NCBI RefSeq assembly: GCF_000981225.1
Contig: NZ_LAJC01000023.1
Location: forward strand, 1 to 64,000
Direction: 5' to 3'
From: Allosalinactinospora lopnorensis
GTDB lineage: Bacteria; Actinomycetota; Actinomycetes; Streptosporangiales; Streptosporangiaceae
Length of the DNA: 64,000 bases
Shown here in pieces: positions 31,430 to 64,000 of this stretch (position 1 is the stretch's first letter; every line of letters starts with the position of its first letter). A program made the translations under genes and the position numbers. Under the pieces are notes generated by a model, which saw nothing but the letters and a program-made list of their open reading frames with translations, did not search any database and was not told the origin of the DNA.

Positions 31430-32212
31430 GTGAGTGAGATGCAGCGGGTTGTTGACGAGTTCAGTGCCAACGGACTCCTGGCCGCCATACGGTGGGCCCA
31501 CCTGTCGGCGGCCCGAACTAGCCTGGCCAACCACTTGCCCCGCGAGGGCTACACGACGAACCGGACCCGGGGAACCTCTCTGTACGAACTGACGGTGGAA
31601 CGCATGGATCGCGTCGCTCAGTGCGGTGCGTTCCAACCCGATCCGTCCACACCGGAAGATGGTCGTGACCTCCTCCACGATGGCATCGACCCGGACCTTC
31701 CACTGGGCGACGTTCTGCTCCCGCCTGGCCATGTCATCCGAGACGACATCCGTGGATCAGAGGGTTGGCGTTTCGGTGAGTGGCGCTGGCTGCGCGCTTC
31801 CTTCAAGTTCGGCGAGGTCAGCAAGATCCGTTGGAGGGGCCTGACCAAGCAACAGGTGGCCGCCCAGGACTGCGTGGATTACCCTGCTCTGTTTCCCATT
31901 GACGAGAACGAGAAACTGCATGCACTTTTCGGGGTCGACCTCTCCCAAACCCTGGTGGTCGCCCAGGCTCTGGACTCCACTACCCAGGACTCGCAGCTGT
32001 ACATCGGACGCCCTCGCCTGAACACCGACAGCGATTCTTCCTGGTACTGGCTGTACGATCTGCTCGGCGCACCACCTGACGCCGGTCGGTCGGGGATCGA
32101 CCGCACGCCGACCTCGCCCGTACCCGAGGCTCCTCGCGAGGTTGCCGACGCCCCAGTGCGCCTGCGTCCGGCGCCCACGACCCCTGGAAAGCGTTCCACT
32201 GATCAAGGATGA
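31430..32212 (+). CDS. Hypothetical protein coupled to the XRE-ImmA gene
   Basis: A 260-residue soluble protein with no family I recognise. It has no membrane segment, a helical N-terminus (MSEMQRVVDEFSANGLLAAI) and a Pro-rich tail after about residue 220. I chose the GTG at 31430 because a -10-like hexamer lies immediately upstream (leaderless) and upstream sequence in the same frame is not protein-like. Its stop overlaps the ATG of the metallopeptidase gene (ATGA). In many regulator-ImmA pairs the partner is the target of cleavage, so this protein could be the target or effector (inference). Confidence 0.55.
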   Translation: MSEMQRVVDEFSANGLLAAIRWAHLSAARTSLANHLPREGYTTNRTRGTSLYELTVERMDRVAQCGAFQPDPSTPEDGRDLLHDGIDPDLPLGDVLLPPGHVIRDDIRGSEGWRFGEWRWLRASFKFGEVSKIRWRGLTKQQVAAQDCVDYPALFPIDENEKLHALFGVDLSQTLVVAQALDSTTQDSQLYIGRPRLNTDSDSSWYWLYDLLGAPPDAGRSGIDRTPTSPVPEAPREVADAPVRLRPAPTTPGKRSTDQG

Positions 32213-33393
32213 CCAACCGACTCCGTGACGTGGCCGCCGTGTTCGACGGCGGCCGACTCACCCTTGCGCGCAACCTGGCTGGTATGCGTAAGAATGCTCT
32301 GGCCACCCAGGTCGGCAAGAGCCCCACAGCGGTCGCCGGTTACGAGAACGGGGCTATGCGCCCTGCAGCCACGACCGTGGCCGAACTCGCTCTGGCTCTC
32401 CAGGTCGACCCCGAGTTCTTTCTGCCCCGACCGGGGGCCATGAACGCCACCAGCTCTCCTGCGCACTTTCGTTCACTGCGCTCGACAACCCAGCTTGCAC
32501 GCGACCAGGCCTACGCCTACGGCCAACTAGTGGTCGATGTCGCTGCGGCCGTCGAGCGCCATGTCGAGTTTCCCGGCCGTAACTTCCCGCTCATCCCCGT
32601 CGTGGGAGAGGAACCGGACAGGAACGCTCCGGAAGAAGCGGCTGGACAGCTCCGGAAGGAGTGGGGTCTCGCGGAGGGGCCGGTCGGACATCTGGTGCGC
32701 CTAGTAGAGAACCACGGGGGCTTGGTTGTATTCACACCACCGGGTGTCTCCGCGGTCGACGCCTATTCCTTCGATTCCGCTCTGCGTCCGGTTATCCTAC
32801 TTAACCCGCTTAAGGACGATTACTTTCGTCAACGGTTCGATGTCGCCCACGAATTGGGCCACTTGGTCATGCACATCGACGCCGAACCTGGTGGACGGGT
32901 GGTCGAGAACCAGGCCCACCGTTTCGCGGCCGAGTTGCTCATGCCCGCCGAGCAGGTCATCGACCAGCTACCGGCTCGCGCTGACTGGCAGGCGTTACAG
33001 CGTCTCAAACAACACTGGAACGTGAGCCTGCAGGCGCTGCTGTTTCGTGCCCGCACACTGGGGGTCATGCGGGAGGTGACCTATCGCAACGCCATGGCCT
33101 CTTTGGCGCAGAAGGGGTGGCGGCGGCGCGAGCCCGGACCGATGCCGGTGCTGGAACAGCCGTCCCTTCTACCGGGAGCGGTTGAACTGCTTGCCAAGGA
33201 GGCAGGGGTCGAGGGGGCTACTTTGGCGGATGAGTGTGGTGCCCCTCTCGGCTTGTTCTCCACGATCACCTCCCGGGCTCCTCGCGGTTCGGGGAAGGCC
33301 CACGAGGGTCAAAAGGAGCAGACCGGGGAGGATGAATCGCACCATGGCGACAAAGTCGTGTCGTTATTGGACCGCATGTCCTCGGAGGAGTAA
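32209..33393 (+). CDS. XRE-type regulator with ImmA/IrrE metallopeptidase domain
   Basis: A 394-residue fusion. The N-terminal helix-turn-helix (about residues 15-65, ATQVGKSPTAVAGYENGAMR) binds DNA. The ImmA/IrrE peptidase domain has the zinc motif VAHELGHLVMH near residue 215 and the downstream ENQAHRFAAELLMPA with its third ligand region. Enzymes of this family cleave repressors or antitoxins to switch on mobile elements or stress responses. The charged C-terminal tail is not conserved. Intact, and translationally coupled to the gene before it. Confidence 0.85.
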   Translation: MTNRLRDVAAVFDGGRLTLARNLAGMRKNALATQVGKSPTAVAGYENGAMRPAATTVAELALALQVDPEFFLPRPGAMNATSSPAHFRSLRSTTQLARDQAYAYGQLVVDVAAAVERHVEFPGRNFPLIPVVGEEPDRNAPEEAAGQLRKEWGLAEGPVGHLVRLVENHGGLVVFTPPGVSAVDAYSFDSALRPVILLNPLKDDYFRQRFDVAHELGHLVMHIDAEPGGRVVENQAHRFAAELLMPAEQVIDQLPARADWQALQRLKQHWNVSLQALLFRARTLGVMREVTYRNAMASLAQKGWRRREPGPMPVLEQPSLLPGAVELLAKEAGVEGATLADECGAPLGLFSTITSRAPRGSGKAHEGQKEQTGEDESHHGDKVVSLLDRMSSEE

Positions 33394-33690
33394 TGGCGGC
33401 CGCTTGTACCCAACCTGCTCATGTGAGCCAACTCTTCCTAGCCGAGCGAGGGTTGGACGTCGTCACACGGCCACGACGGTCCCAGCGTCACACCCACCAC
33501 CGCTGACCAGCGAAGCCGCCTGAAATACAAGCCCGCCACCTGTCAACTGAACAGTGAAGATGGGACGTGGCTCCGGGCGTGAGCTTTCCCCGCTTGCACG
33601 GACGCGCCAGCTTCCCCCTCCTACGCCACCGCATCCTCCTCGAATGACACCACTCTCAGTCACCACCGAAAGTGGGACAGAGCCCTTAAC

Positions 33691-34698
33691 TTGACGAACC
33701 CCATCCGCGCGGTCTATCTCCGTGAAGCCGATGTGCTTCCGGTGCTGGACGAGTGGCTGGCCACCCTGTTTGACCCCACCCGACGCCGAGCCACCATTCG
33801 CCTGCTCGCCGAGTCGCAGCGGGAAAACGACGCCGACCAGGCCGCTCGGCGCGCGGCTGAGGAGAAGATCGCCGGGTGTGACGCGAAGCTGGCCCGCTAT
33901 CGCGCCGCGTTAGAGGCCGGAACGGATCCGGAAGTCGTGGCTGAATGGATCCGGGAGGTCAAGCCTGACCGGGCGCTAGCCAACGCCCAACTTGCCGAAC
34001 AGAAGGATTACCCTCAGCGACTCGATGAAGACGAGGTCGCCGCCCACCTGGACGCGATAGGAGACGTCTCAACCATGATCCGCCACGCCGACCGTGAGGC
34101 GAAGAGCGCCCTCTACAACGGGCTGGATCTTCGCCTGACCTACCACCCCGTAGAACGCAAAGTGCGAGCCGAGGCGAACCTCAACTCGCACGACATGTAC
34201 AAACGGTCGTGTCCGAGGGGGGACTTGAACCCCCATGCCCTTAACCTACTGGGGGCCTCAGATGGCCTTGGGACTCGCGGTAGGTCGGCCGATTACGTGC
34301 GAAAACTCTTCCGGCTGATTCTCGCGGTTTCCCGCCCTCACCTGGCGTCATGTGCACTGAATGTGCATCGCTTGGGCGTCGTTACTGGGCCTGCTCCCCG
34401 TAGCTTCCGTGGCCCACCGGACACAGGACTCACCCTTATCAGCTCGATCATGGGTCACCGTAGACGCCTGCTGTGCTGGGATCGGAGTCCGGCGAAGGTC
34501 GTTCCGATCGTGCGGTGGCAGGTGGCGTTGCTGTCACTACTGCTGTCAATTGCTGAGCTCATACCTGTCATCGCTGTATCCAGGATTATGTTCTTGGTCA
34601 TACCGCTCACAGCAGCCCAGCGCTCACGCGGGCAACGGAAACGCATCTCGCGAGTTCTCCCCGCTTCTCGCCTGCTTCTTATAGCTAGATGGAACTAG
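33691..34698 (+). pseudogene. Large serine recombinase, C-terminal part, running into the AICE
   Basis: The first 175 or so residues match the tail of large serine recombinases: the coiled coil (ARRAAEEKIAGCDAKLARYR, DPEVVAEWIREVK) and the last strand LYNGLDLRLTYHP. The end, RSCPRGDLNPHAL, is the frame read through the tRNA-Leu 3' end that forms the left attachment site. Beyond it the open frame to 34698 is AICE DNA without homology to recombinases. Together with the 29.2-29.8 kb part it makes one interrupted gene: the split falls after the zinc ribbon, where TNPIRAVYLREAD resumes. Confidence 0.65.
34209..34245. repeat. Left attachment site (attL) of the AICE
   Basis: A 37-bp copy of the 3' part of the tRNA-Leu gene, identical to 46292-46328. 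Outside these bounds the two places differ. It includes the T-loop region and acceptor 3' strand, but the bases that would encode CCA are different here. Confidence 0.9.
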
Positions 34699-34733
34699 TG
34701 CTGGGCAAGGACCAATTGTGAGATCATATATGA

Positions 34734-35867
34734 GTGTCACATAAGGAAAGAACAGACAAGCTTTCCCCCAGTGAAAAGGCTAGGCGTATAGGGCAACGAG
34801 CAGTCAACGCCTCTCGAATGTTCTTCGAAGAGAACGGCCTAATTTTCCATGAAATTGATTTGCGGAATGATGCTGGAAAAGATGTGATATTAGACCTTGG
34901 GCGATCTGAAAAAGATTTAGGGTTGACGGTGTCGCTGCAAATCAAAGGAGGGGATAAATATAAGCGCAAGTCTGGACATGTCATCGAAATAAACTCGCGA
35001 TTGCGTAGTCTCTGGCTCAACAGCAATACGCCAATTTTTGTAGTCGCCCAAGATCCGAATGACGGGGAGCTCTACTGGGGGAACCTTAAGGAGATGGCGG
35101 AAAGAGCTCCTCAAGAGTCGAAGAGTGCTTATCTATATCCTGACCAGAAGTTGACCCCGAATGGGATTAGTGACTTCCTTGAAGCCGCAAGGACTGAATG
35201 CAAGAGGCAGCAAGGAAATCTCTTTCTGAGGCTATTTGGCGAGGATGAATTAGAGAAGCAGTCTGCTCTTTTTGACTGTCTCGCAGTGGGGCGGAATGAT
35301 CCGCGCTATTTTCGCTTGCTCCGCTCGCTACTATTAAGCTTCAGAGACCAGAACACCTATCTCTCCGCCGTCCGTATATTGTCACATGCAACTCCGCATC
35401 CCGACATCTTCTGGCATAATGGCAACATTGTCCCTACCGATGTTAGGCGCGATATTGCAAAATGTTTCCGTTGGGCGCCGAACGAGATTTCCATGCTAAT
35501 CTCCCGCCTTCCCAAAGAGGAAGGAATATGGGAGCGAGGGACCATATCCCAGAGCCTCTACATGCTCCTCGTCGAGGACCCGGCACTAGACTGGTCTCTT
35601 GACCGTCTCATCACGGAATCATTTCGAACTGACGAAATGACATGGAGAAGCACCTGGATTGCAGCTGAGCCGTTCGGCCCGAAATGGGTTAATGCGGACC
35701 GCAAGCAAATAATATTTGCAGTCTTAGCCTTAATGATCTTCTTGGCGGACTCTCCAGAAGCGAGATTGGAAGAAATACGTGAAAGACTTCCAGGCATCCA
35801 AAAGCTCGCATTCTTCCGAGAAATTGCGCTGCTAGTTGAAGAGTACGGCGGAATTGGTCTCTTCTAA
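34734..35867 (+). CDS. DUF4365 protein, putative PD-(D/E)XK nuclease-like
   Basis: A 377-residue protein starting at GTG. The N-terminal 150 residues fit DUF4365: INRAVNASRMFFEENG-like helix, then DVILDLGRSEKDLGLTVSLQ followed by IKGGDKY, in the position of the nuclease motif where D and QxK replace (D/E)xK. The remaining 220 residues are helical and unassigned. The gene is clearly AT-rich with many A/T-ending codons, unlike everything around it, so it was acquired recently from another source. It stands alone just inside attL, a usual place for phage-defence cargo. Confidence 0.65.
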   Translation: MSHKERTDKLSPSEKARRIGQRAVNASRMFFEENGLIFHEIDLRNDAGKDVILDLGRSEKDLGLTVSLQIKGGDKYKRKSGHVIEINSRLRSLWLNSNTPIFVVAQDPNDGELYWGNLKEMAERAPQESKSAYLYPDQKLTPNGISDFLEAARTECKRQQGNLFLRLFGEDELEKQSALFDCLAVGRNDPRYFRLLRSLLLSFRDQNTYLSAVRILSHATPHPDIFWHNGNIVPTDVRRDIAKCFRWAPNEISMLISRLPKEEGIWERGTISQSLYMLLVEDPALDWSLDRLITESFRTDEMTWRSTWIAAEPFGPKWVNADRKQIIFAVLALMIFLADSPEARLEEIRERLPGIQKLAFFREIALLVEEYGGIGLF

Positions 35868-48468: not shown

Positions 48469-51302
48469 GTGCCACCCACGAAGGGCAGCGCCGGTGAGAA
48501 CGGCTCGAACGACACCGGCACCAAAGACCCGGGCGGCGGCAATCGGCTCGTCATCGTCGAGTCGCCCGCCAAGGTCAAGACGATCGCCGGCTACCTCGGC
48601 CGGGGGTACGTCGTGGAGTCCAGCATCGGCCATATCCGGGACCTGCCGACCAAGGCCGCCGAGATCCCGGCCCGCTACAAGGGCGAGGCGTGGGCGCGGC
48701 TGGGTGTGAACGTCGAGCGCGACTTCGAGCCGCTCTATGTCGTCAATTCCGATAAGAAGCAGCAGGTCAAGAGGCTCAAAGAGCTTCTGGCCGAGGCCGA
48801 TGAGCTCATCCTGGCCATGGACGAGGACCGCGAGGGCGAGGCCATCGCCTGGCACCTGCGCGAGGAGCTCAAGCCGAAGATCCCGGTGAAGCGCATGGTC
48901 TTCAACGAGATCACCCGGGAGGCGATCGAGCGCGCCACCCAGAACACCCGGGATCTGAACCTGCGCCTCGTCAGCGCCCAGGAGACCCGCCGCATCCTGG
49001 ACCGGCTCTACGGCTACGAGGTCTCCCCGGTGCTGTGGAAGAAGGTCATGCCGAGGCTGTCGGCGGGCCGTGTGCAGTCCGTCGCGACACGCCTGGTCGT
49101 GGAGCGCGAGCGTGAGCGGATCGCGTTCACCTCGGCGGAGTACTGGGGACTCAAGGCCGTTTTCGACTCGGTCGGGCGCAGTTCGGGCGACGACCCCGCC
49201 ACCTTCATGGCCAACCTGGTCTCGGTCGACGGCGACCGGGTGGCGGTGGGACGCGATTTCACCTCCGACGGTGTGCTGCGTTCCAGCTCGGGTGTGCTGC
49301 ACCTGGACGAGGAGTCCGCCCGCGCTCTCGCCGACCGGCTCACCGGGAGCGACTTCGCGGTGCGCTCGGTGGAGCGCAAACCGTACAAGCGTTCCCCCTA
49401 CGCCCCGTTCCGCACCACAACGCTGCAGCAGGAGCCTCGCGCAAGCTCGGCCTGTCCTCGAAGCAGACGATGCAGGTGGCGCAGCGGCTCTACGAGAACG
49501 GTTTCATCACCTACATGCGCACCGACAGCATCACCCTGTCGGAGAGCGCCATCGCGGCCGCCCGCGACCAGGCCGCGCGGCTGTACGGCACCGACTACCT
49601 GCCGGCGAAGCCGCGCATCTACTCCAGCAAGGTCAAGAACGCCCAGGAGGCGCACGAGGCCATCCGCCCGGCCGGCGACTCGTTCCGGACGCCGGCCGAG
49701 ACCGGGCTGACCGGTTCGGAGTTCCGGCTTTACGAGCTCATCTGGAAGCGCACGGTCGCCTCCCAGATGAAGGACGCCGTCGGCGAGTCGGTGACGGTGA
49801 AGGTCACCGGGACCTCCAACGCCGGCGAGCTGGCCGAGTTCGCCGCCACGGGGAAGATCATCACCTTCCACGGGTTCCTCAAGGCCTACGTCGAGGGCGC
49901 CGACGACCCCGAGGCCGAGCTCGACGACCGCGAGCGCCGGCTGCCCCCGCTCGACGAGGGCGATCCGCTCAAGGCCGAGAGCGTCGAGGCCGAGGGGCAC
50001 AGCACCCGTCCGCCCGCGCGCTACACCGAGGCGACGCTGGTCAAGGAGCTTGAGGACCGCGAGATCGGCCGCCCGTCCACATACGCCTCGATCATGGGGA
50101 CCATCCTGGACCGCGGCTACGTGTTCAAGAAGGGCTCGGCGCTGGTGCCGTCCTTCCTGGCGTTCGCTGTGGTGCAGCTCCTGGAGCGGCATTTCCAGAA
50201 CCTGGTCGACTACGACTTCACCGCGCGCATGGAGGACATCCTCGACGGCATCGCGCGCGGCGAGACCGCGAGCCTGCCGTGGCTGCAGCGGTTCTACTTC
50301 GGGGCCGACGACGAGACCGGGCTCCGTGACCTTGTGGGCGACCACCTCGCCGAGATCGACCCGAAGGAGGTCAGCTCCTTCCCGCTGCCCGGCACCGACA
50401 TCGTGATGCGGGTCGGCCGCTACGGCCCCTACATGGAGCGCGACGGGCAGCGGGTCAACGTGCCCGAGGACCTCGCTCCTGACGAGCTCACCAAGGAGAA
50501 GGCCGAGGAGCTGTTCGCCCAGCCCAGCGGCGATCGCGAACTCGGGGCGGACCCGGAGACCGGGCGCACCGTCCTCGCCAGGGTCGGGCGGTTCGGCCCC
50601 TACGTGACCGAGGTCCTGGAGGAGCCCGAAGGCGGCGAGGGCGAGACGAAGCCCAAGAGCAACAAGTCGAAGTCCAAGGCCAAGCCGAAGCCGCGCACCG
50701 CCTCGCTGCTGAAGTCGATGTCGGTCGACACGGTCACCCTTGAGGACGCGCTGAAGCTGCTCTCCCTGCCGCGTGTGGTGGGTGAGATCGACGGTGAGGA
50801 GGTCACGGCGCAGAACGGCCGGTTCGGCCCCTACCTGAAGAAGGGGTCCGACAGCCGTTCGCTGGAGAGCGAGGAGCAGATCTTCAGCGTCACCGTCGAG
50901 GAGGCCAAGGAGATCTTCGCCAAGCCGAAGCAGAGGGGGCGCCGCGCCGCCGCGGCCGCGCCGCTGCGCGAACTCGGTGTGGACCCCCACAGCGAGAAGC
51001 CGATGGTGATCAAGGACGGCCGGTTCGGCCCCTACGTGACCGACGGCGAGATCAACGCCTCCCTGCGCAAGGGGGACGACGTCGACTCGATCACCGATGA
51101 GCGCGCGGCCGAGCTGCTGGCCGACCGCCGGGCGAAGGCGCCCGCGAAGAAGTCGGCGGCCAAGAAGAGCACCGCGAAGAACGGTGCGGCGGCCAAGAGC
51201 GGTTCCAAGGGCACTGCCAAGACCGGCGCGAAGTCGGGCACCAAGAGCGGGACGGCGACCAAGAGCCGCGCCAAGAAGAACGGCACCGCCGAGAGCGGTT
51301 GA
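48469..51302 (+). CDS. topA: DNA topoisomerase I (one frameshift)
   Basis: Essential type IA topoisomerase that relaxes negative supercoils. The Toprim domain has LVIVESPAKVKTIAGYLG and AMDEDREGEAIAWHL. KKVMPRLSAGRVQSVATRLV leads to the gate domains. The active-site Tyr is in GFITYMRTDS. One base is missing after 49434: repair gives LQQEASRKLGLSSKQTMQVA and a protein of about 945 residues. C-terminal repeats carry GRFGPY motifs, and a long Lys/Ala tail ends the protein, typical of actinobacterial TopA, which lacks zinc fingers. Since the gene is essential, the shift must be a sequence error. GTG start. Confidence 0.93.
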
Positions 51303-51434
51303 CGATGCGTGACCGCCCCCTCGTTGCGCGCAACGGGGGTGGCGCGCGAACGTTCCTGGCAGTACAGTGCCGCGGACGTACTCATTGCCACTTTCGCTTG
51401 ATTCGTGGCTTTTCGTGCGGATGCGCACCCGGCG

Positions 51435-51440
51435 TATAAT
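51435..51440 (+). promoter_or_regulatory. -10 box TATAAT before the MFS-tmk gene
   Basis: A perfect TATAAT about 130 bp upstream of the start codon, rare in DNA this GC-rich. No convincing -35 box at 16-18 bp was found. Confidence 0.35.
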
Positions 51441-51570
51441 GTTGTGTGTGCTATGTCACATTCCGCACTGTGCTTATGGTGCCGCGCGAGAACGCTGAGG
51501 TGTCTCGCCGCGTCACCGATACACGATCAGTGCCCCGTCGAGACCGGAAGCGTCGATACTCTTTATCGCT

Positions 51571-53738
51571 ATGAGCAGATCTGCATCCTTAGCAGCGCCG
51601 GGCGAGGCGCGCAACGTCCTTGCGATCAAGCCATTCCGGCGGCTGTGGATCTCGCTGTCGCTCTCGAGCCTCGGTGACTGGCTCAGCCTGCTGGCCCTTG
51701 TTTCGCTCGCCGCGCTCCTGACGCGGGAGGGCGAGCCGATCACGCAGTACTTCGCGGTCAGCGGCGTCGTCGCCCTCAGGCTTGTGCCCCCCCTGTTGCT
51801 GAGCCCCCTCATCGGTGCGCTCGCCGATCGGGTCGACAACCGGCTGATCATGATCGTCGGCGACGTCCTGCGCGCCCTCCTCTACGTGTCGGTTCCCATC
51901 GTCGGCCGGCTCGACTGGCTGTTCGCCGCCGCGTTCCTGGCGGCCTGCGTCGTCCCGTTCAGGACCGCGGCCAAGGACGCCACCGTCCCCGACATGGTCC
52001 CCAAGAAGCGGCTGGAGGAGGCGCACCGGATCAACCTGCTCACCGGCTACGGCGCCGCGCCGGTCGCCGCGGTGGTGTTCGCCGTCCTGGCTGCCCTCAG
52101 CGCCGTGCTCGGCGCGCTGTTCCCGGTGCTGAGCACGGCCCAGGCCGACGCCGCCCTCTACGCCAACGGTGTCGCCTTCCTGGCCGCCGCCGTCGTCACG
52201 TGGATGCTCCCGGCCCGCAAGCCGGGCGCGGAGGAGTCGGCGGCGCAGCCGGTGGACAGCGTGGACGCCAATGAGCTGACCGCACCGCTGCCGCAGACCC
52301 GCGAGGTCCCCGTCGCCCAGCCGGTGCAGCGGCCGACCAGTCCGAGCACGCCCGACAGCAACGTGCTGCGCACCCTCTGGCAGGGGGCGCGGTTCGCCGG
52401 TACGACCCCGCTTGTGCGCGGTCTGCTCCTGGGCATGCTCGGCGCGTTCTTCGCCGGCGGCGCGGTGCTGGGCGTGGGCCGGCTCTTCGTGGAGAGGATG
52501 GCGGCCGGCAACGCCGGTTTCGGCGTGCTGGTCGGTGCCTTCTTCGCCGGCATGGCACTGGGGATGTTCATCGGACCGCGCGTCCTGCGCGATCTCAATC
52601 GACGCCGGCTGTTCGGCCTGAGCCTCGGGGTCTCCGCTGTCGCGCTGTTCTGCGCGGGGCTCATCCCGAACATGGTGCTGGCCGCCGGGCTGACCACGGT
52701 CGTCGGCGTGGGCGCCGGCATCGCGTGGGCGGTGGGCCTGGGCCTGCTCACCCAGGAGCTCGAAGAGGAGGTCAGGGGACGCACCTTCGTGTTCCTGCAC
52801 GCGGCGGCCGGGGTGCTCCTGCTGCTCTCGGCCGCGCTGATGCCGCTGCTCGCCGGGCTGATCGGCGACCACCCGGTCCAGGTCCGGGACCTCTCCTACG
52901 ACTTCCTGGGCACCGGAGCGGCACTGATGATCGCCGCGCTGCTGGCCCTCCTGGCGGCCCTCTTCGCCTACCGGCAGGTGAGCGAGCGGAGCGAGGTATC
53001 GTTCAGCACCGAACTGATCGCGGTGCTGCGCGGCGTGCCGGCCACCCCCGCCAAGGAGGCCGAACATCTGCCCGGAACCTTCATCGTGCTCGAAGGCGGC
53101 GAAGGCGCCGGAAAGTCCACCCAGGCCGGCCAGCTCACGGTCTGGCTGCGGGAAGAGGGCTTCGAGGTCGTCGCGACCCGCGAACCGGGCGCGACCAAGC
53201 TCGGCATGCGGCTGCGGGCACTGCTGCTCGACAAGGACGACATGAGCGTCTCCCCGCGGGCCGAGACGCTGCTGTACACGGCGGACCGCGCCGAGCACGT
53301 CAACGAGGTGATCCTTCCGGCGCTGCGCCGCGGCGCCATCGTCATCAGCGACCGCTACATCGACTCCACCATCGCCTACCAGGCGCCGGCCGGGAGCTGG
53401 ACGGTCCGGTGATAGAGCGGATCAACGACTGGGCCACCGAGGAGCTGGTTCCGCACCTCACGGTGCTGATGGATCTGCCGGCGGAGGAAGGGCTCGGGCG
53501 GCTCGGGGGCTCCACCGACCGCATGGAGGCGCAGTCGGAGCAGTTCCACACCCGGGTACGCAAGGGCTTCCGCGACCTGGCCGAACGCGAGCCCGACCGC
53601 TATCTGGTGGTCGACGCCCGGTTGTCGCAGGAGGAGGTCACCCGGGAGATCCAGCGCCGCCTGCGCCCGCTCCTGCCGGACCCGGTCCCCCAGGACGCCG
53701 AGGCCATCACCGGCATGATGCCGATCATCAAGGACTAG
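51571..53738 (+). CDS. tmk: MFS transporter fused to thymidylate kinase (one frameshift)
   Basis: The N-terminal 450 residues form a major-facilitator membrane protein (LWISLSLSSLGDWLSLLALV, then further segments). The C-terminal part is dTMP kinase, which phosphorylates dTMP to dTDP: P-loop in LEGGEGAGKSTQAGQL, DRx motif in ISDRYIDSTIAYQ, LID region before the end. One base is missing at 53382-53383; repair gives AYQGAGRELDGPVIERIN and about 722 residues. The fusion is known in several actinomycetes. Tmk is essential, so the break is most likely an error. Why a transporter is attached is unknown. Confidence 0.9.
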
Positions 53739-53921
53739 GACACGCGGACACCCTCGAAGTCCCTTGGGTGCGGGCCGAAGACCGCTTCGGCCCGCACCTT
53801 TCGTTTGCGGGGGCGGGAAAACCCTTCGCCCGGCCGGGGCCGTCCGGGGTAGGTTCGAGCACCTCCCGATCCCTGGGAGGCACCCAGTGCGGAGCCGCCG
53901 CACCACGGTCCGGAGGGGAGC

Positions 53922-54715
53922 ATGCCGGTGCAGCACTCCAGTGCCGAGTTCGCCGCGATCGCCGAGCAGGGCACGATCCTGCGCTGCCAGGTGGGCTCGG
54001 GAGTCCACGGCATCACCGTCGCCGACCAGGACGACCGGGACGAGATGGGCATCTGCGTGGAGCCGCCGGAGTACGTGGTCGGACTGCGCCGGTTCGAGCA
54101 GTACATCTACCGCACACAGCCTGAGGGGGTGCGTTCCGGTCCCGGTGACCTCGACCTGACCGTCTACTCGCTGCGCAAGTGGCTGCGGTTGGCGCTCCAG
54201 GGCAATCCGACGGTGCTGCTTCCGCTGTTCGTGCCCGAGGACGAGATCGTTCGCGTCACGGATCTGGGGCGGGAACTGCGCGCGAACGCCGACCGGATCT
54301 GTCCCGGCAGGCCGGGGACCGGTTCCTCGGCTACCTGCGGGCGCAGCGGGACAGCATGCTGGGGCTGCGCGGCGGGCGGCACACCAACCGCCCCGAGCTG
54401 GTCGAGAAGTACGGCTTCGACGTCAAGTTCGCCTACCACATGGTGCGGCTGGGCGTTCAGGGCGTCGAGATGCTGGAGACCGGCAGGGTGACACTGCCGA
54501 TCCCCGAGCCCTGGGCATCCTGGCTGCGCGGGCTGCGCCGCGGCGAGCACTCGATGGCCGAGGCGCTGGCCGCGGCCGGGGAGCTGGAGGGCCGGCTGCG
54601 GGACCTGGTGGACACCTCGCGGCTGCCCGAGTACCCCGACCGCGCCTGGGGTGACGCCTGGCTGGTCGAGGCCCACCAGCGCGCGTGGCGCGAGCCCGCC
54701 TCCGCCGCGGTATAG
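53922..54715 (+). CDS. Polymerase-beta-type nucleotidyltransferase (one frameshift)
   Basis: Protein of about 265 residues. The N-terminus holds a minimal nucleotidyltransferase site: GSGVHGITVADQDDRDEMGI (GS motif, then the acidic pair). LDLTVYSLRKWLRLALQGNP follows. One base is missing at about 54299: the repaired reading is RILSRQAGDRFLGYLRAQRD, and the second half continues with VEKYGFDVKFAYHMVRLGVQ to the stop at 54715. Members of this predicted nucleotidyltransferase group occur in many actinomycetes and phages; the substrate is not known. Confidence 0.8.
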
Positions 54716-55249: not shown

Positions 55250-56298
55250 ATGACGTATACGCGTTTCGAATCCATCGGCGCGTACCTGCCGTCGACAGAG
55301 AAGCCGACGCGGGAACTCGTAGCGCAGATGGAGTATGAGCCACCCTTCGATCTCCAGCGGATCACCGGGATCACGAACCGGCGGGTCGGCGACAGCCGTC
55401 CGGACACCTACGAGGACTCCTTCGCCCTCGCCCTGCGGGCGGCCGAGGACTGCCTGTCGAGGTCGCGGTACGACGCCGGCGGGCTCGACGTGATCATTTC
55501 CTCCTCGATCACCCGGTCCAAGGAGCGCGACCGCTTCTACTTCGAGCCCTCCTTCGCGCACATGCTGGCTCGCGTGCTCGGCGCGGACTCGGCGATCCAC
55601 TTCGACGTGTCCAACGCGTGCGCCGGAATGCTCACCGGGGTGACCGTCCTCGACCGGATGGTCAAGGCCGGGATCGTGCGCAACGGCCTGGTGGTCAGTG
55701 GCGAGAGGATCACCGTGATCACCGAGACCGCGGTCAAGGAGATCTGCGAACCCTACGACTCCCAGTTCGGCTCCCTGACCGTGGGCGACTCCGCCGCCGC
55801 TGTGGTGCTCGACGAGTCCACCAGTGAAGCGGACCGGATCGACTACGCCGAACTGATGACGTGCGCCGAGTACTCTCACCTGTGCATCGGCATGCCGAGC
55901 GACAAGAACCAGGGCATCGCCCTCTACACCGACAACCACCAGATGCACAAGAAGGAGCGCCTGGCACTGTGCCCAACTTCCACCGGGAGTTCCTCGCCAA
56001 GCGCGGCAGGACCTTCACCGAGGAGGGCTACGACTTCGTCATCCACCACCAGGTCGGCGCGAGCTTCATCGAGAAGATATCCCGAACCGGTGAGCGGATC
56101 CTCGACGCGCCCATGCCCGAGCCGCTGGCGGTGGTCGACCGGTACGGCAACACCTCGTCCACGTCGCACTTCGTGGTCATGTACGAGCACCTGAAGAACG
56201 GCCGTATCACCAAGGGCTCCAAGCTCCTGCTCGTGCCCGCCGCCTCCGGCGTCGTCACCGGGTGCCTGTCCGCCACGATTTCTTCCCTGGAGGTCTGA
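55250..56298 (+). CDS. OleA/LstA-like thiolase-fold acyl-condensing enzyme, complete active site (one frameshift)
   Basis: KAS III-like enzyme that would join two acyl chains head to head (Claisen condensation) to a 2-alkyl-3-oxo acid. Catalytic Cys in FDVSNACAGML, His in YDFVIHHQVGASFI and Asn in DRYGNTSSTS are all present, and FEPSF holds the Glu that serves as base in OleA dimers. One base is missing near 55970: HKKERL continues in the next frame as TVPNFHREFLAKRG. Repaired length about 350. The ATG at 55250 follows GGAAAG. It opens an operon whose next gene is a second, partial-active-site homologue, as in lipstatin (LstA/LstB) and nocardiolactone clusters. Confidence 0.85.
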
Positions 56299-56299
56299 G

Positions 56300-57222
56300 A
56301 TGGGCACCATCATCAGCGCCACCGCGGTCAGCACCGACCCCGCGGTCCACAGCTCCATCGAACACGCCTCGCTCGCCGCGGGCGACTGCCTCGACCGTGC
56401 CGGCATCACCGCCGACCAGGTCGACCTCATGGTCAACACCGGCGTCTACCGCGACGCGAACATGTCCGAGCCGGCGATGGCCGCGATGATCCAGAAGAAC
56501 GTCGGGGTCAACCTGGACTACCTTCAGAACCCGACGGCCAAGCCCGCCTTCTCGTTCGACCTGATGAACGGGGCGTGCGGGGTGCTCAACGCGGTCCAGG
56601 TGGGCGCCGGGTTCGTCGAGTCCGGCAGTGCCGAGTACGTGCTCGTGGTCTCGGGCGACGCTCACCCGTCGAACGACCCCGCCGAAGCCCGCCGCACCGG
56701 CTTCCCCTACGCCACGATGGGCGCCGCGATGCTGCTCGGGCGCACCTGGACGAAGGAGCGGGCTTCGGCAAGATCCACACGGCGACCGCGCACGAGGGGG
56801 CGCCTGGGGCCGGAGGGTACACCGAGACCGGCCGGATGGGCCGCGAGGGCCGCCGTGCGGTCACCGTCCGGCAGGACGGCGACTATCCGGACCGTCTTGC
56901 CGCGCTCGCCGCTGACTCCGCCCGGGCGTGCGCCGAGGCCGAGGGCATCGACCTGCACGAGACCCTGCTGGTCACCTCCCAGCCGACCCCGGCTTTCGCA
57001 GCCGAGGTCGCGGCCCGGCTCGGCGTCGGCGAGGACGCGGCGGTGACCGTCACGGGCGTGGCCGGTGACCCGCACACCTCCGCGGTGCCCCTCGCCTACC
57101 ATCAGGCCGTCGCCGCCGGCCGGGACCGGGAGTTCCGCCAGTTGCTGTTCGTGGCCGTCGGTGCCGGGCTCACGTCCGCCTGCGCGGTGTACCGGCACCC
57201 CGAGCACTCCCCTGTCCGATGA
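56300..57222 (+). CDS. OleA/LstB-like partner subunit, incomplete active site (one frameshift)
   Basis: Second KAS III-like protein, about 308 residues after repair. It keeps the Cys region FDLMNGACGVLNAV and the Glu loop NMSEPAMAAM. Where the first subunit has His there is LLVTSQPTPAF, and where it has Asn there is GDPHTSA, so the His-Asn pair is gone. One base is missing near 56757 (TK-GAGFGKIHTATAHEG). The ATG lies 2 bases after the first gene's stop; its own stop overlaps the next gene (ATGA). It probably forms a heterodimer with the first subunit and selects the second acyl chain (inference from lipstatin and nocardiolactone systems). Confidence 0.82.
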
Positions 57223-59179
57223 CGGCGCGGACGGAAGCGGCGCCGGGGATCGCCGCGCGACTGCGGGACAACGCCCGCACCTTCCCGGACAAGAAGGCGA
57301 TCATCTTTCCCGCCGGCCGGGACCGCGCGGGCGCGACCGTCTACCGGCACGTCACCTACCGCGAGGTGGACGACACCGCCGACGCCTACGCGAGAAGACT
57401 GCTCCGCGCTGGGATCGACAGGGGAACCAAGACCATTGTCATGGTCAGGCCCGGGCCGGATCTCTTCGCGATCGTGTTCGCGCTGTTCCGGATCGGCGCG
57501 GTTCCGGTCATCGCCGACCCCGGGCTGGGGTTGCGGCGGATGCTGCACTGCTACCGCACCGCCGGCGCCGAGGCGTTCGTGGGGATCCCGGAGGCGCATG
57601 TACTGCGGGTGCTCAGCCCCCGCACCTTCTCGTCCCTGCGGACGAGCGTCACGGTCGGCCGGCGCTGGTTCTGGGGCGGGCCCACACTGCGCGAACCGGC
57701 CCGACCGCCCGCGGCCGCACCCGGTGCGGAAGGGGCCACCGGCCGGGTCGAGGAGCCCGCCCTGTCGGACGACGACCTGCTCGCCATCAGCTTCACCACC
57801 GGCAGCACCGGTCCGGCCAAGGGCGTGGAGCACCCGCGCGGCATGGTCGAGGGGATCGTGCGGCAGATCAGGGACGCCCTCGGCCAGCGGGAGGACGACG
57901 TCTCGCTCGTCACCGTGCCGCTGTGGGGGATCTTCAGCCTGCTGCTCGGGTCGACCTGCGTGCTGCCGCCCGGCGATCCCGCCAAGGTGGCCGCGATCGA
58001 CCCGCGGGCCGTGGTGGAGGCGATCGAGCGGTTCGGCGTGACCACCATGTTCGCCTCGCCAGCGCTGCTCGACCGGCTCGGTCGCTACGCCACCGGCGCG
58101 GGCATCGGTCTAGGTTCGCTGCGCGGTGTCGTCTCGGGCGGCGCGCCCGTGCGGGACGACATCGCGGCCACCATCTGCGACCTCCTCGGCGAGGGCGGGC
58201 CGGCCCGGTTCCGCATTACATACGGGGCGACCGAGGCGCTGCCGATCTCGTCGATCACCGCGGAGGAGAGCCTGGCCGAGACGCGGGCGCTCATCCGTAC
58301 CGGCAGCGGCACCTGTGTCGGCCGGCCGGTGCCGGACGTGGAGGCGCGCATCGTGCCGATCACCGACACACCGATCCCGGAATGGTCGGATGACCTGCCG
58401 GTCGAGCTGGGGCAGGTCGGCGAGATCGCCGTCAGCGGCCCGACCGTCAGTGGCCGGTACCACGCGGCACCGGAGGCGGACGGGTACGCGAAGATCCCCG
58501 ACGGGGAGCGCGTGTGGCACCGCACCGGGGACCTCGGCCGGATCGACGAGGCCGGGCGGATCTGGTTCTGCGGGCGGAAGAGCCAGCGGGTGCACACCGC
58601 CGGCGGCACGCTGTACACGGTGCCGTGCGAGGGGATCCTCAACGCCCATCCCGACGTGCACCGAACCGCGCTTGTCGGGGTGGGACCGCCGGAGCGGGCA
58701 CGGCCCGTGGTCTGCGTCGAGCTGCATGACGGCGTACCCACGAAGGAGCGGGCCCGGGTGGAGCGGGAGCTGCGGGAACTGGCCGCGCGGCACGAGCCGA
58801 CCCGGCCGGTGGAGGCGTTCCTCTTCCACCCCGGGTTCCCGGTGGACATCCGGCACAACGCGAAGATCAACCGCGAAGAGCTCGCGGAGTGGGCCGGTGC
58901 CCGCCTCGCGGCCGGGGCGGGACCGCGCCGGCGGCTCCGCGCGTGGGTTCCGCGGCTGGTGCCGCTCGCCGGGTGGGCCTTCCTGCTGTACGGGCTGCTC
59001 TGGCCCTTCACCCACCGGTGCTGCAGACCCTCTTCTGGATCGACGTCGTGCTCAGCGTCGTCGTGCACGGGTTCCAGATCCCCCTAGCACTGCCGCGGGC
59101 GCGCCGGGCCGGATACCGCGGTGCGGCGACCGTCGCCCTGACCTTCCTGTTCGGCGCCACCTGGTGGAGGTCACTGTGA
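57219..59179 (+). CDS. OleC-like beta-lactone synthetase with C-terminal membrane region (one frameshift)
   Basis: AMP-forming enzyme that closes a 2-alkyl-3-hydroxy acid to a beta-lactone. Family marks are VRPGPDLFAIVFALFRIGAV, then PVIADPGLGLRRMLHCYR and EAFVGIPEAH, typical of OleC rather than CoA ligases. The P-loop is SFTTGSTGPAKGVEHPRG; GATEALPIS, HRTGDLGRID and the catalytic Lys in NAKINREEL follow. After about residue 565 come three hydrophobic segments (LVPLAGWAFLLYGLLWPF; one base missing near 59015; LFWIDVVLSVVVHGF; VALTFLFGATWW). OleC normally ends before these. The stop overlaps the GTG of the next gene. Confidence 0.85.
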
Positions 59180-60206
59180 AGACACTGGTCACCGGGGCAT
59201 CCGGGTTTCTCGGCAGCCACATCGTGGACGAGTGCGTCCGGGCCGGCGACTCGGTCCGGGCGCTGGTGCGCCCGTCCAGCGATCTCAGCCACCTGCGGAC
59301 GGTGCCGGGCGTCGAGATCGTCCACGGCGACCTCAAGGACCGGGCCTCGCTGCGGGCGGCCACCGAGGGCGTCGACGTGGTCTACCACTCCGCGGCGCGG
59401 GTGCTCGACTACGGCAGCCGGGCCCAGTTCTGGCAGAGCAACGTGACGGCCACGGAATCGCTGCTAGAAGCGGCGCGGGCGGGCGGGGCCGGCCGGTTCG
59501 TCTTCGTGAGCAGCCCGAGTGCGGTGATGACCGGAGAGGACCAGTACGACATCGACGAGAGCCGGCCCTACCCGCAGCGCCACCTCAACCTGTACTCGGA
59601 GACGAAGGCCGCCGCCGAGTCGATCGTCCTGGCCGCCGACGCCCCCGGTTTCACCACCTGCGCGATCCGACCCCGCGGAGTCTGGGGGCCGCGCGACTGG
59701 CACGGGTTCATGCCCAAGCTGCTGGCGAGGATGCTGGACGGGCGCATGCCCGACCTCTCCGGCGGCAGGCGGGTCCGCACATCGCTGTGCTACTGCACCA
59801 ACGCGGCCCGGGCCTGCCTGCTCGCCGCCCGGTCCGGGCGGGTGGGCGGGCGCGCCTACTTCGTCGCCGACAGGGAGAGGACCGATGTCTGGGCGTTCAT
59901 GGCCAGATGGCCGAGCGCTTCGGCGGGACGCCGCCGTCCCGTCCGATCCCGCCGCTGGTGCGCGATGCGCTCGTCGAGGCGGTCGAGCTGGCGTGGCGGG
60001 TGCCGTACCTGGCCCACCGCTACTCGCCGCCGCTGTCCCGGTACTCCGTGGCGCTGCTCACCCGCTCGACCACCTACGACACGAGCGCGGCCGAGCGGGA
60101 CCTCGGCTACCGGCCGGAGGTGGACCAGCCGACCGGGCTCGACCTGCTCCAGCAGTGGGTGGACGAGATCGGCGGCGCCGACGCGTTCGTCGAGAAAGTG
60201 AGGTAA
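59176..60206 (+). CDS. OleD/LstD-like NAD(P)-dependent 3-oxo acid reductase (one frameshift)
   Basis: Short-chain dehydrogenase of the 3-beta-HSD/epimerase type that would reduce the 2-alkyl-3-oxo acid to the 3-hydroxy acid before lactone closure. Rossmann loop: TLVTGASGFLGSHIVDECV. Catalytic Tyr and Lys: LYSETKAAAES; the Ser is in VSSPSAV. One base is missing near 59903: after DVWAFM the next frame reads GQMAERFGGTPPSRPIPP and runs to 60206. Repaired length about 344. GTG start overlapping the OleC-like stop, so strictly coupled. Confidence 0.85.
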
Positions 60207-60211
60207 GCGGC

Positions 60212-63200
60212 GTGACCGGGAGTACGATCTTCTGGCGGCCCGTGTCGCCGACCGAGTGGTTCTACCTCGCCGGCGCCCGGCTGGCGCCCCCGTTCGCGGT
60301 CCAGGCCCTCGTCGAGGGGCAAGGGCGGATCGGCTGCGAGGAGCTCACCCACGCGGTCGCCGCGGCATCGGCCGCCTGCCCCGGGGCGCGGCTGGTCCGC
60401 CGGGGACGGACCTGGCTGGACAGCGGCCGGACGCCGCCGGTGCGGCGCCTGGAGCTCCCCGGCGGCGGGCCCGTGCGCCTTGACGGGCCGGTCCTGGGGC
60501 CGGCGCTGCGCCGGCCGCTGAATCCCGAATCCGGGCCCACCTGCGAGGTGCTGCTGCTCGACCACGGCGGGGCGACGCCGAGCGCGCTCGTGTTCCGCGC
60601 CTTCCACGGCGTCATGGACGGCAGGGGCCTGCTGGCCTGGGTCACCGATGTCTTCCGGGTACTCAGGGGGGAAGAGCCCATAGGGGCCGCGTCGCGGATG
60701 ACCGATCACGGCCTCGCCGGCGAACTCGGAAACGTCGGCCGCCGGCCCCGGCTGGGTGCGGACTGGCGGCCCTCGCTGGAGGGCTCGGGGAGGCCCACCG
60801 GACCCGGTGCCGCCGTCTTCCGCCGCCGCAGCGTCGACGGCACCCATCCGGGCCTCGTCGCGAAGATCGCGGCGGTACTCGCCACGGCCGCCGGGCACGA
60901 CCGGTCCCGCTTCCTGGTCCCGGTGGACCTGCGCCGGCACCGTCCCGGACTCGTCTCGACGGCCAACCTGACCCTGCCGATCCTCCTCGACGCGCGGCCG
61001 GGCGAGGCGTGGGAGGGCCTGCACGAGCGGCTGCTGCGGGCGATGGCCGACCGGCGCGAGGTCACCACCGGCGGGGTACTCGAACGGGTGACCGGCCGGA
61101 TTCCGCAGGCCGGGCTCGGTACCCTTCTCGCCGCGGTCACCGGGGCCGCGGACCGGCGGCGGCGATACCTGGGATCGGCGATCATCTCCGATCTCGGGCG
61201 GTTCGATCTCGCGGACTTCTCCGCGGGGAGCTTTGAGGCGGCGGCGGTGTATCCGCTGCGACCCACTCGCCGCTCCTACCGGTCTCGTTCGCCGTCGCGG
61301 AAACAGCGGGCCGCACCGAGATCACCGTGTCCTGCCCGGACGACCCGGGGGCGGTGGAGAAGGCGGAGGACCTGCTCGACCGGATCACCGAGGCGCTGTC
61401 TCCGCCGGAGAGCCGTGCCTGGTCCGGCAACGACACCGACCGGCCGGTCCCGGCGGCGACGGTCACCCGGCTGTTCCGGGCGCAAGTCCAGCGGAGCCCT
61501 GACGAGCTCGCCCTCACCGGCCCGGACGGCGACGTCAGCTACGCGGAGCTCGACCGCCACTCCGACGTGGTCGCCGCCGAGCTGGCCGCGCGCGGGGTCG
61601 GCAAGGGGACCGTGGTCGGGCTCCTCGCTGACCGGTCGGCCGAGGCGCTGGCCGGGCTGTGGGGCATCCTCAAGGCGGGTGCCGGCTACCTCCCACTCGA
61701 TCCGCACCATCCCGACAGCCGGACCAACTGGGAACTCGATGATTCACGAGCCCCGCTGTGCCTGGTGCAGCGCCCGTACGCGTCGCGGATCACCGGATGC
61801 CGGACGCTCGTCCTCGACGATCTGGCGCGCTCGGGGGCACCACCCGCCCCGCCGGAAGCGGTCGAGCCCGGTGACCTGGCCTATGTCATCTACACCTCGG
61901 GGTCGACCGGTCGACCCAAGGGGGTGCAGGTGGAGCACCGCAGCCTGGTGAACTACGTGACGTGGGCGTCAGAACTGTACCGCGTGGATGCCGATACCCG
62001 GTTCGCGCTGTTCACCTCGCTCGCGTTCGATCTGACCGGGACCGCGGTCTTCCTGCCGCTGCTGGCCGGCGGGAGCGTGGCACTGGTGCCGGACGACGTG
62101 AGTCCGGTGACGCTGCGGGCCATGATCGAGCGGTCCGGCGCCAACGCGCTGAAGCTCACCCCGGCGCACCTGGACCTGATCGGCCGCCTTGATCTCGCGC
62201 CGGACGGCTTCCGGGTGCTGGTCGTCGGCGGCGAGCAGCTCAGAGGCCCGGTAGCGGCGCAGGCGGCACGGCTCTTCGGGCCGGAGTGCCGCATTGTCAA
62301 CGAGTACGGCCCGACCGAGGCCACCATCGGCTGTGTGGCGCACGTCTTCGACCCGGACCGAGACGGGGTCGCTCCGGCGGTGCCCATCGGCACCCCCGTC
62401 GCCAACATGAAGTCCTTCCTGCTCGACGCCGACCGGCGGTTCGTCCCCGCGGACGGGGTCGGCGAGTTGTATCTAGCGGGAGCGCAGCTCGCCCGCGGGT
62501 ACCTCGGGCGTCCGGACCTCGACCGAGAGCGGTTCGTCCGCCTCGCCGACGGAACCCGGGCCTACCGCACCGGCGACCTGGCCCGGATCCTCCCCAGCGG
62601 TGTGCTGGAGTACCTGGGGCGCAGCGATGACCAGGTCAAGATCCGCGGGCACCGTGTGGAGCCCGGCGAGGTCGCGGCGGCACTGGAGGAGCACCCGCGG
62701 GTCGCGCGGGCCCTGGTGACCGGGCGGGTCGGCGGCCAGGGTCAGACGATCCTGTGCGGCTACGTCGTCACGGACCGGGCCGGGCAGCGGCCAGACGTCG
62801 AGGTGCTCCGCGCCCACCTGGCCGAACGGCTGCCGTCCTACATGGTCCCCACGGCGATCGTCTGTGTGCCCGAGCTCCCGCGGACCGTGAACGGAAAGGT
62901 CGACGTGCACGCGCTTCCCGACCCGTTCGCCGGCCAGGACGACCCGGTCGGCGAACCGGCCGAGCCGGCGGTACGGGACGACGTCGAGGAGGCGGTGGCG
63001 AAGATCTGGGCGGAGATCCTGCGGACCGACGCCGCCCGGATCGGCCCGGACGCCGATTTCCACCGCCTGGGCGGCGATTCGGTGCTGTTCCTCGCGATGC
63101 TCGCATCGGTGGCGACGACAGTGGTCGGATCGGAGGGGCAGGAGGCGTTCATGGTGGGGCTGCGGGAGATGATCCGCACCCCCACCCTCGGCCGTGTGTG

Positions 63201-63258
63201 CCGCACGGCCCGGCGGGCACGGCACGAAGGCCGCGAGGGTCCGGTGAGCGCGCTGTGA
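60212..63258 (+). CDS. One-module NRPS: condensation-like, adenylation (Asn code), carrier domain (one frameshift)
   Basis: About 1016 residues from the GTG at 60212. Residues 1-380: condensation/acyltransferase-like domain with FHGVMDG near residue 131, where the first His of HHxxxDG is Phe. One base is missing near 61258 (VYPL... then THSPLLPVSFAVAETAGR). Residues 400-900: adenylation domain with YTSGSTGRPKGV, NEYGPTE, YRTGDLAR and NGKVD. Specificity positions aligned to PheA read D-L-T-K-V-G-E-I-G-K, an asparagine code. Residues 920-1000: carrier domain with Ser in LGGDSV. No thioesterase. It should load Asn and pass it to the hydroxyl of the beta-lactone acid as an ester, like LstE does with Leu. 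GTGA overlap to the next gene. Confidence 0.85.
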
Positions 63259-63866
63259 CCGGACTGTGTTTCCGCCCGGCCCGCCCGCAGGACGCGGCGG
63301 CGGTCGTGCCGCTGATGCGCGCCTCCTCGCCCGCGCTCGTCGACGCGGTGTTCGGGGAGCGCGCCGCCGGTGTGCTCCACCACGACTTCCTCCGCGGCCG
63401 GGGCCTCTTCGGGTACCGGCACCAAACCATCGGCGTCGCCCCCGACGGTGGGATCGTGGCCACCATCACCGCCTACGACGGCGTGCGGTACCGGAGGCTG
63501 CTTCTGCGCACGATGCTGTCGGCCGCCCGCTGCTGCGGCCCCGTCCGCTTCCTCGGCAGCCTGCTGTCGGCCGCCGCGCTGGGGCGCCAGTTCGTCCCGC
63601 CCGGAAGGGACGCGGTGTACCTGGCCAACCTCTGCGTCGACGCCGGGCACCGGTCCCGCGGGTACGGGGCCGCGCTCATGGAACACGTGATCCGGGCAGC
63701 GGGGGACCGGGGCCTCCGGCAGACCGAACTCGACGTGTCGCGGACGAACCCCCGCGCCCAGAAACTCTACGAGCGCATGGGCTTCACCATCGCCGCCGAG
63801 TGCCCGGACACCGGCGGTATCCCCGGGACCCGCCGCATGCGGCGCCCGATCGGACACAGGAGATGA
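63255..63866 (+). CDS. GNAT-family N-acetyltransferase
   Basis: A 203-residue acyl-CoA N-acyltransferase. The acetyl-CoA loop lies in VDAGHRSRGYGAALMEHVIR (RxxGxG/A pattern), followed by the beta-5 end ELDVSRTNPRAQKLYERMGF typical of GNATs. Start is the GTG that overlaps the NRPS stop, and the stop overlaps the next ATG (ATGA), so it belongs to the operon. In lipstatin the matching position has a formyltransferase acting on the leucine amino group. Here N-acetylation of the asparaginyl group is the natural guess. Confidence 0.85.
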   Translation: MTGLCFRPARPQDAAAVVPLMRASSPALVDAVFGERAAGVLHHDFLRGRGLFGYRHQTIGVAPDGGIVATITAYDGVRYRRLLLRTMLSAARCCGPVRFLGSLLSAAALGRQFVPPGRDAVYLANLCVDAGHRSRGYGAALMEHVIRAAGDRGLRQTELDVSRTNPRAQKLYERMGFTIAAECPDTGGIPGTRRMRRPIGHRR

Positions 63867-64000
63867 CCATGCCGGCACTGCCCTACCCGCCCCGCCGCCG
63901 GCCCGACGTGGCCCGGCCCCCGGGGCCGGCGGCGGGTACGGTCCTGCGATCGCTCGTGTCCCGCACGCCGAGCAGGCCGGTCGAGCTGCTCACCGAACTC
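63863..64000 (+). CDS. Unfinished gene at window end, possibly a cytochrome P450
   Basis: Only 46 residues are in the window. The ATG overlaps the acetyltransferase stop. After a Pro/Arg-rich start the sequence reads TVLRSLVSRTPSRPVELLTE, which resembles the first helix of some bacterial P450s before the region where AxxYGDVV would follow. A hydroxylase or desaturase would suit a lipstatin-like fatty chain, but the identity is not settled. Confidence 0.4.
   Translation, partial: MTMPALPYPPRRRPDVARPPGPAAGTVLRSLVSRTPSRPVELLTEL

Follow-up and report, generated by a model that had tools for sequence, protein, structure and literature searches.

A seven-gene operon at the end of the window

We analysed a window of 64,000 nucleotides (positions 1 to 64,000 of the 72399-base contig NZ_LAJC01000023.1 of Allosalinactinospora lopnorensis) that ends in a gene cluster resembling the lipstatin (lst) beta-lactone operon. 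A preliminary description had listed six genes in the order OleA-like, OleA-like, OleC-like, OleD-like, non-ribosomal peptide synthetase (NRPS) and N-acetyltransferase. All six are present in that order on the + strand between 55250 and 63866, near the positions first given, and their Pfam domains agree. The cluster also continues past the window, as had been supposed, by one further gene: a cytochrome P450 gene that overlaps the acetyltransferase (GNAT) gene by ATGA and stops at contig position 65389. It is followed by holB, so the operon ends there. Because of the ATGA overlap, we count the P450 as the seventh member of the operon. The first five genes are called A to E below.

55250..56298, + strand: gene A, LstA-like KAS-III, catalytic subunit; Pfam ACP_syn_III and ACP_syn_III_C in its two halves; frame change near 55967-55971
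56300..57222, + strand: gene B, LstB-like KAS-III, partner subunit; Pfam ACP_syn_III and ACP_syn_III_C in its two halves; frame change near 56759
57219..59179, + strand: gene C, OleC/LstC-type beta-lactone synthetase; Pfam AMP-binding, NCBIfam NF006754 above cut-off; frame change near 59025, in the C-terminal extension
59176..60206, + strand: gene D, OleD/LstD-type NAD(P)-dependent 3-oxo reductase; Pfam 3Beta_HSD/Epimerase; frame change near 59905
60212..63258, + strand: gene E, LstE-type NRPS with condensation, adenylation (A) and carrier (T) domains (C-A-T); Pfam AMP-binding, AMP-binding_C and PP-binding; frame change near 61260
63255..63866, + strand: GNAT N-acetyltransferase in the slot of the lst formyltransferase; Acetyltransf_1, E 2e-14
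63863..64000, continuing to contig position 65389, + strand: cytochrome P450, 5' part in the window; Pfam p450, E 5e-76
51571..53738, + strand: MFS-tmk fusion bordering the insertion site on the left, and likewise split by a frame change

Each of the first five genes is split by one frame change, which could point to a decayed, non-functional cluster. We consider decay very improbable: topA (near 49470) and MFS-tmk (near 53410), housekeeping genes elsewhere on this contig, are broken too, and the catalytic residues of the cluster are kept in the frames on either side of the breaks. In L174, a cluster from a relative whose genome is in two contigs, all five genes A to E are unbroken, and its A, B, D and E proteins align across both frames of the window genes, with a gap of no more than one residue where the frames meet. 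Since housekeeping genes are split too and the five L174 homologs are unbroken, the frame changes in the cluster are likely to be assembly indels. The assembly seems to carry many of these; within 48700-54715 of the window, an RlaP-like nucleotidyltransferase gene looks split by frame changes along with topA and MFS-tmk.

The operon belongs to the lipstatin family

Similarity to the OleC-like protein was used to fetch ten loci for comparison, six from plasmid records and four from genomes. In all ten, counterparts of genes A to D and of the NRPS condensation domain follow one another in the same order; three of the loci (L036, L038 and L039) carry an additional small gene, and two others (L041 and L043) lack the A domain. 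Because this order is kept throughout, chance co-occurrence of the genes is excluded. The first six tblastn matches of the OleC-like protein in plasmids lie in five Streptomyces records and one Rhodococcus record, where the annotation reads KAS-III, hypothetical, AMP-binding/fatty acid CoA ligase, epimerase-type reductase, NRPS and formyltransferase. Identities to six lst-type counterparts are 56-61% for A, 39-46% for B, 50-55% for C (the L037 protein aligns as two pieces, at 50 and 58%) and 56-61% for D. Protein E is 42-45% identical to four of its counterparts in one piece and 37-46% to the two others, each aligning in two pieces.

According to a review, the catalytic residues are C128, H271 and N305 in LstA and E60 in LstB (PMC12141560). 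In the A and B proteins of L037, a Streptomyces globosus locus, these residues fall on exactly the published numbers, and by alignment the window keeps all four, the LstA-equivalent Cys, His and Asn and the LstB-equivalent Glu. Gene order, homology and catalytic residues thus all match the lipstatin-type assignment (lstA-lstE order) made in the preliminary description.

On NF006754 (cut-off 478) the OleC-like ligase reaches 621 bits; on NF045786, the olefin beta-lactone synthetase model, it reaches 536 bits, short of that model's cut-off of 900. The best model of an ordinary long-chain acyl-CoA ligase reaches only 174 bits against the 621, and we rejected this identity. A sequence search of the PDB with the OleC-like protein returned no close OleC. 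The N-terminal piece of the OleD-like protein, used as query, matched the oxyalk_red models NF042422 and NF042423 below cut-off. In an OleC tree, the rows nearest to the window are L045 and L044, both OleC proteins of lst-type clusters, and OleC proteins from ole clusters (L020 and L024) nest among the lst-type ones. The tree covers a chosen subset of 62 rows, with most Nocardia rows, L035 and L038 omitted, and has one very long FadD outgroup, which makes its root untrustworthy. Because of this outgroup and the nesting of the ole-type rows, the tree cannot part lst-type from ole-type proteins. Placement of the ligase among ordinary acyl-CoA ligases, which the preliminary description had named as the outcome that would count against it, was thus not found, though less cleanly than could be wished: the family scores favour OleC, while the tree leaves the ole and lst types unseparated.

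No OleB ortholog was found in this genome with OleB from an ole cluster as query, in line with what had been claimed for the window; an OleB gene just outside it was the other outcome that the preliminary description had named as counting against its interpretation. The best match (30%, 78 bits) lies on another contig and has a low alpha/beta-hydrolase score, while the same query recovers a protein at 57% and 346 bits in another genome with an ole cluster. In the absence of OleB, the beta-lactone ring would be kept. Homologs of OleA, OleC and OleD are also what an olefin hydrocarbon pathway of the ole type would have, had it merely acquired an NRPS, and the unseparated OleC types in the tree agree with such an origin. 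We regard it as extremely improbable in view of the missing OleB ortholog, the two dissimilar KAS-III subunits, which are like those of lst, the presence of NRPS, GNAT and P450 within the same operon, and the origin of the nearest OleC rows from lst-type clusters. The evidence strongly indicates an lst-type beta-lactone operon.

The NRPS carries an Asn-type adenylation pocket

The N-terminal domain of the NRPS (60212 to about 61260) contains the motif xHxxxDG, and the carrier domain contains LGGDS. Pfam gave no condensation match within the N-terminal 350 amino acids. An AlphaFold model of the N-terminal domain (mean pLDDT 88.6) matches structures of the condensation fold and of related acyltransferases, with a best TM-score of 0.65 by query length. 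The His and Asp of xHxxxDG are invariant across 25 sequences.

The pocket of the A domain reads DLTKVGEIGK. Its residues were assigned by eye to GrsA positions and then carried over to other clusters by alignment. Excluding the window, 27 clusters have a readable pocket (26 and L174). Five share the pocket that we call Asn-type, as DLTKVGEIGK in L054, L082, L120 and L174 and as DLTKIGEIGK in L079. Seven have the lipstatin-type pocket DIFALGGVxK, the S. globosus locus (DIFALGGVAK) among them, and the remainder read DLMxQGxxAK (seven), DMAxxGSIxK (six), DGHLAGVIVK (one) and DIIALGGVGK (one). A table in a review lists V299I, H322E and I330V as changing the Asp domain of surfactin synthetase to Asn (PMC7242659). 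The window has E322 as in the Asn-changed domain, but V299 and I330 are unchanged. In a tree of 27 A-domain rows, which does not include L174, L044 falls with the Asn-type rows in a single group (99/98). The A domain of L044 (Longimycelium) groups with the Asn type, yet its pocket is DGHLAGVIVK and its cluster has a formyltransferase; its NRPS would take an amino acid other than Asn.

A GNAT stands in place of the formyltransferase

The acetyltransferase, left unexplained in the preliminary description, stands where lst clusters have their formyltransferase. With four lst formyltransferase queries, no LstF-type formyltransferase was found on the 72399-base contig (best E 0.11), and elsewhere in the genome there were only partial matches (36-41%, at most 44 bits); the same queries find the proteins of L042, L044 and L082 at 45-61%. 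Since LstF is absent and a GNAT is present instead, the operon is a variant and not a lipstatin cluster. Relatives of the window GNAT occur in L120 (48%) and L079 (41%), and as a fragment in L045. In L045, from a Dactylosporangium metagenome-assembled genome, the start of lstE is joined to the end of the GNAT gene (13800-15011), near a transposase-like gene; the join could be an internal deletion or a misassembly.

A GNAT is present in three of the five other Asn-type clusters, two of them related to that of the window and one unrelated (L054), whereas tblastn with four GNAT queries found none in the 22 non-Asn clusters, 21 of which have a formyltransferase. Fisher tests of Asn-type against other clusters gave p 0.0034 for any GNAT, p 0.028 for the window's kind of GNAT alone and p 0.0014 for the formyltransferase, values that treat the clusters as independent in spite of their relatedness. 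The remaining two Asn-type clusters are L082 and L174, to which we return below, and the association between Asn pocket and GNAT is partial.

L054 (Wenjunlia) is the clearest single case. Its D protein is 87% identical to the reductase of L049, a cluster with a DLMSQG-type pocket, and its OleC adjoins that of L049 in the tree, while its A domain is closest to that of L120 (71%), an Asn-type NRPS. A GNAT lies between D and E (Pfam E 3e-10) that is only 23% identical to the window GNAT over 65 residues, and the lst queries found no formyltransferase in the locus. Because D and OleC point to one branch and the A domain to another, and because the GNAT is unrelated, it appears that in L054 an NRPS exchange was accompanied by a change of N-acyl gene, an unrelated acetyltransferase taking the place of the formyltransferase.

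The P450 shows the heme-Cys, ExxR and I-helix motifs, and its best relatives by search are 52-53% identical. Its presence in the operon weakly suggests an oxidation step in the pathway. In L118 (Streptomyces cavernae), a cluster without a matched NRPS, a P450 gene on the opposite strand (7416-8732) adjoins gene A, and its product is 33% identical to that of the window.

Proposed pathway and product

From the gene identities and order, the catalytic residues, the pocket and the lack of OleB and LstF, all observed, we infer substrates, an order of reactions and a product. An A/B heterodimer would join two fatty acyl-CoAs non-decarboxylatively to an alpha-branched beta-keto acid, with A providing Cys-His-Asn and B the cross-dimer Glu. 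D would reduce the ketone and C would close the beta-lactone, the ring persisting without OleB. The NRPS would adenylate Asn, load its own carrier domain and, through its condensation-fold domain, esterify Asn to the side-chain hydroxyl. The GNAT would acetylate the Asn amine at the step where LstF would formylate Leu, and the P450 may contribute an oxidation. We expect an N-acetyl-asparaginyl beta-lactone as the product, either esterastin or a close relative of it, possibly in oxidised form. Esterastin, an esterase and lipase inhibitor related to lipstatin and known since 1978, is an N-acetyl-asparaginyl ester (C28H46N2O6) that shares the C22 backbone of lipstatin. Lipases and other serine hydrolases are inactivated by such beta-lactones.

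Several observations weigh against this interpretation. With five frame changes, we can only infer that the operon is intact in the real genome. L082 pairs the Asn pocket with a formyltransferase, and in L174, the nearest intact relative, GNAT, formyltransferase and P450 were all unmatched in these searches. L037 has an annotated GNAT, two genes past the formyltransferase and on the opposite strand, which the four GNAT queries missed; unrelated GNATs could for this reason have been missed among the 22 non-Asn clusters. Any P450 match occurs in only 5 of 90 cluster loci, four of the matches being weak (23-25%), and in none of the Asn-type clusters. The lipstatin-type pocket DIFALGGVxK is itself not known as a textbook Leu code, which makes code reading in the lst family uncertain. 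Finally, a survey describes the Asp and Asn codes as overlapping (PMC12283262), so that Asp is a possible substrate of the A domain.

The last point leads to an alternative in which the product is a lipstatin-family beta-lactone with Asp or another amino acid and the GNAT adds a non-acetyl group or acts elsewhere, for example in self-protection. It would be in keeping with the similarity of the window GNAT to FeeM, an N-acyl amino acid synthase (weak and below cut-off), with its very mixed PDB matches among acetyltransferases, some of them resistance enzymes, and with L174, which manages without an N-acyl gene found in its cluster. Against it, the Glu at 322 is an Asn-type residue in the review table cited above (PMC7242659), the GNAT occupies the formyltransferase slot, and an unrelated GNAT is found in L054, where an Asn-type NRPS entered another cluster. 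We judge this alternative unlikely. The reading of NRPS and GNAT as Asn-specific and N-acetylating carries moderate confidence, and on balance the operon is probably a lipstatin-family (lstABCDE-type) beta-lactone cluster specialised for an esterastin-type product.

No esterastin biosynthetic genes were found in the literature searched; in a 2023 study, a mass from a Streptomyces extract was putatively annotated as esterastin (PMC10616362). We put forward, tentatively and with less than even confidence, what would be, as far as these searches reach, the first genetic locus for esterastin-type inhibitors. Amino acid and N-acyl cap would change together, from Leu and N-formyl to Asn and N-acetyl, by NRPS exchange and formyltransferase-to-GNAT replacement, at least twice and from unrelated GNATs, and oxidation by the P450 would give an undescribed compound. 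If the esterastin-type reading is right, the way esterastin is made can be tested directly, at the window locus and at the corresponding loci of S. sioyaensis and S. inhibens, and natural swaps of the L054 kind illustrate how lipstatin-family inhibitors can exchange their amino-acid cap.

Distribution among actinobacteria

A contig scan with LstB-type patterns gave 130 relatives, of which 80 were kept; together with the ten earlier loci these made 90, which we typed by tblastn. In 22 of them OleC, the condensation domain and the A domain are accompanied by a formyltransferase. Two more, L079 (S. inhibens) and L120 (S. sioyaensis), have OleC, condensation and A domains with a window-like GNAT and lack the formyltransferase, and another two (L054 and L093) have an A domain with neither N-acyl gene by these queries. 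The largest class, 48 loci, of which 44 are titled Nocardia, has OleC and a condensation-fold protein with no A domain; one of these, L040, is cut by a contig end. L045 has the NRPS start joined to the GNAT end. Six loci have OleC without a full condensation domain, some on contigs that stop there, and nine gave no OleC match within the DNA examined; these two classes and L040 were left out of the pocket statistics. Clusters of the lst type are thus common in Streptomyces and Nocardia.

Within the window's own family, 340 other genomes gave an LstB match at E 1e-30 in two, G635 and G686 (the genome of L174). In the sequence read, OleC adjoins the match in L174 alone; within 20 kb around the G635 match, no OleC of the lst type was seen. 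The preliminary description had called the combination unfamiliar for this group of organisms. It is indeed rare in the family, with OleC beside LstB in one of the 340 other genomes, but not across actinobacteria. In 100 genomes, an LstB half used as query found the window itself, two other clear matches (G036, a third genome of the family, at 8e-26, and G067) and five weaker ones; around the KAS-III pairs of G036 and G067, the 20 kb read showed no OleC of the lst type. The loci with LstA/LstB-kind KAS-III pairs but no such OleC within 20 kb are L014, L015 and L175, perhaps a second use of the KAS-III heterodimer; the L014 and L015 pairs lie near WS/DGAT-like acyltransferase genes.

Genomic site

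The window cluster sits between tmk and holB. After the P450 come holB and, as read from the sequence, a RicT-like gene, a hydrolase gene, a tRNA gene, an MFS gene and sucCD. Among 20 relatives searched, 19 had a locus, and holB follows tmk within the flanks examined in 13 of these, some loci ending at contig ends. The G+C content is 0.72-0.74 in the cluster and 0.68 in the left flank. Gain of the cluster here and loss elsewhere are indistinguishable. Because no holB was found in the 20 kb read around it, the L174 cluster is placed at another genomic position.

Farther upstream, positions 31298-35864 form a low-G+C island (0.59 at 32-36 kb) that encodes an RmrA-like helix-turn-helix/M78 peptidase protein (387 bits) and a DUF4365/Argonaute-associated nuclease-like protein, and that also holds a weak match to RmrT. 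It looks like a defence island.

Comparison with known systems

The nocardiolactone-type (nlt) clusters of Nocardia share A, B, C, D and a condensation-fold protein with the window. In these clusters the condensation-fold protein stands alone, without the A and T domains that the window has. Such a stand-alone protein follows OleD in L041, L043 and other Nocardia-type loci, and in the two Nocardia loci read (L041 and L043) it is followed by what is presumably an MMPL-type exporter. Nocardiolactone-type clusters may hold an unrecognised acyltransferase step.

L174, from the same family as the window, is the nearest intact A-E cluster (65% identity for A, 64% for B, 66% for C, 74% for D and 62% for E) and has the same Asn pocket, but differs in the unmatched GNAT, formyltransferase and P450. 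L120 and L079 are like the window in A-E order, Asn-type pocket and a related GNAT after the NRPS; they differ in that no P450 was matched in the flanks examined.

The anti-obesity drug tetrahydrolipstatin derives from lipstatin (PMC7064751). The lipstatin operon, lstABCDEF of Streptomyces toxytricini and of the S. globosus plasmid locus L037, resembles the window in the order and families of the first five genes, the residues of the KAS-III heterodimer and the C-A-T NRPS. It has LstF where the window has a GNAT and the pocket DIFALGGVAK where the window has DLTKVGEIGK, the P450 is extra in the window, and its hosts would belong to another bacterial family. In esterastin, from S. lavendulae MD4-C1, no P450-derived group is expected, unlike in the possibly oxidised product of the window operon. 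The Asn-type pocket and the acetyltransferase of the window would fit the N-acetyl-asparaginyl ester of that compound.

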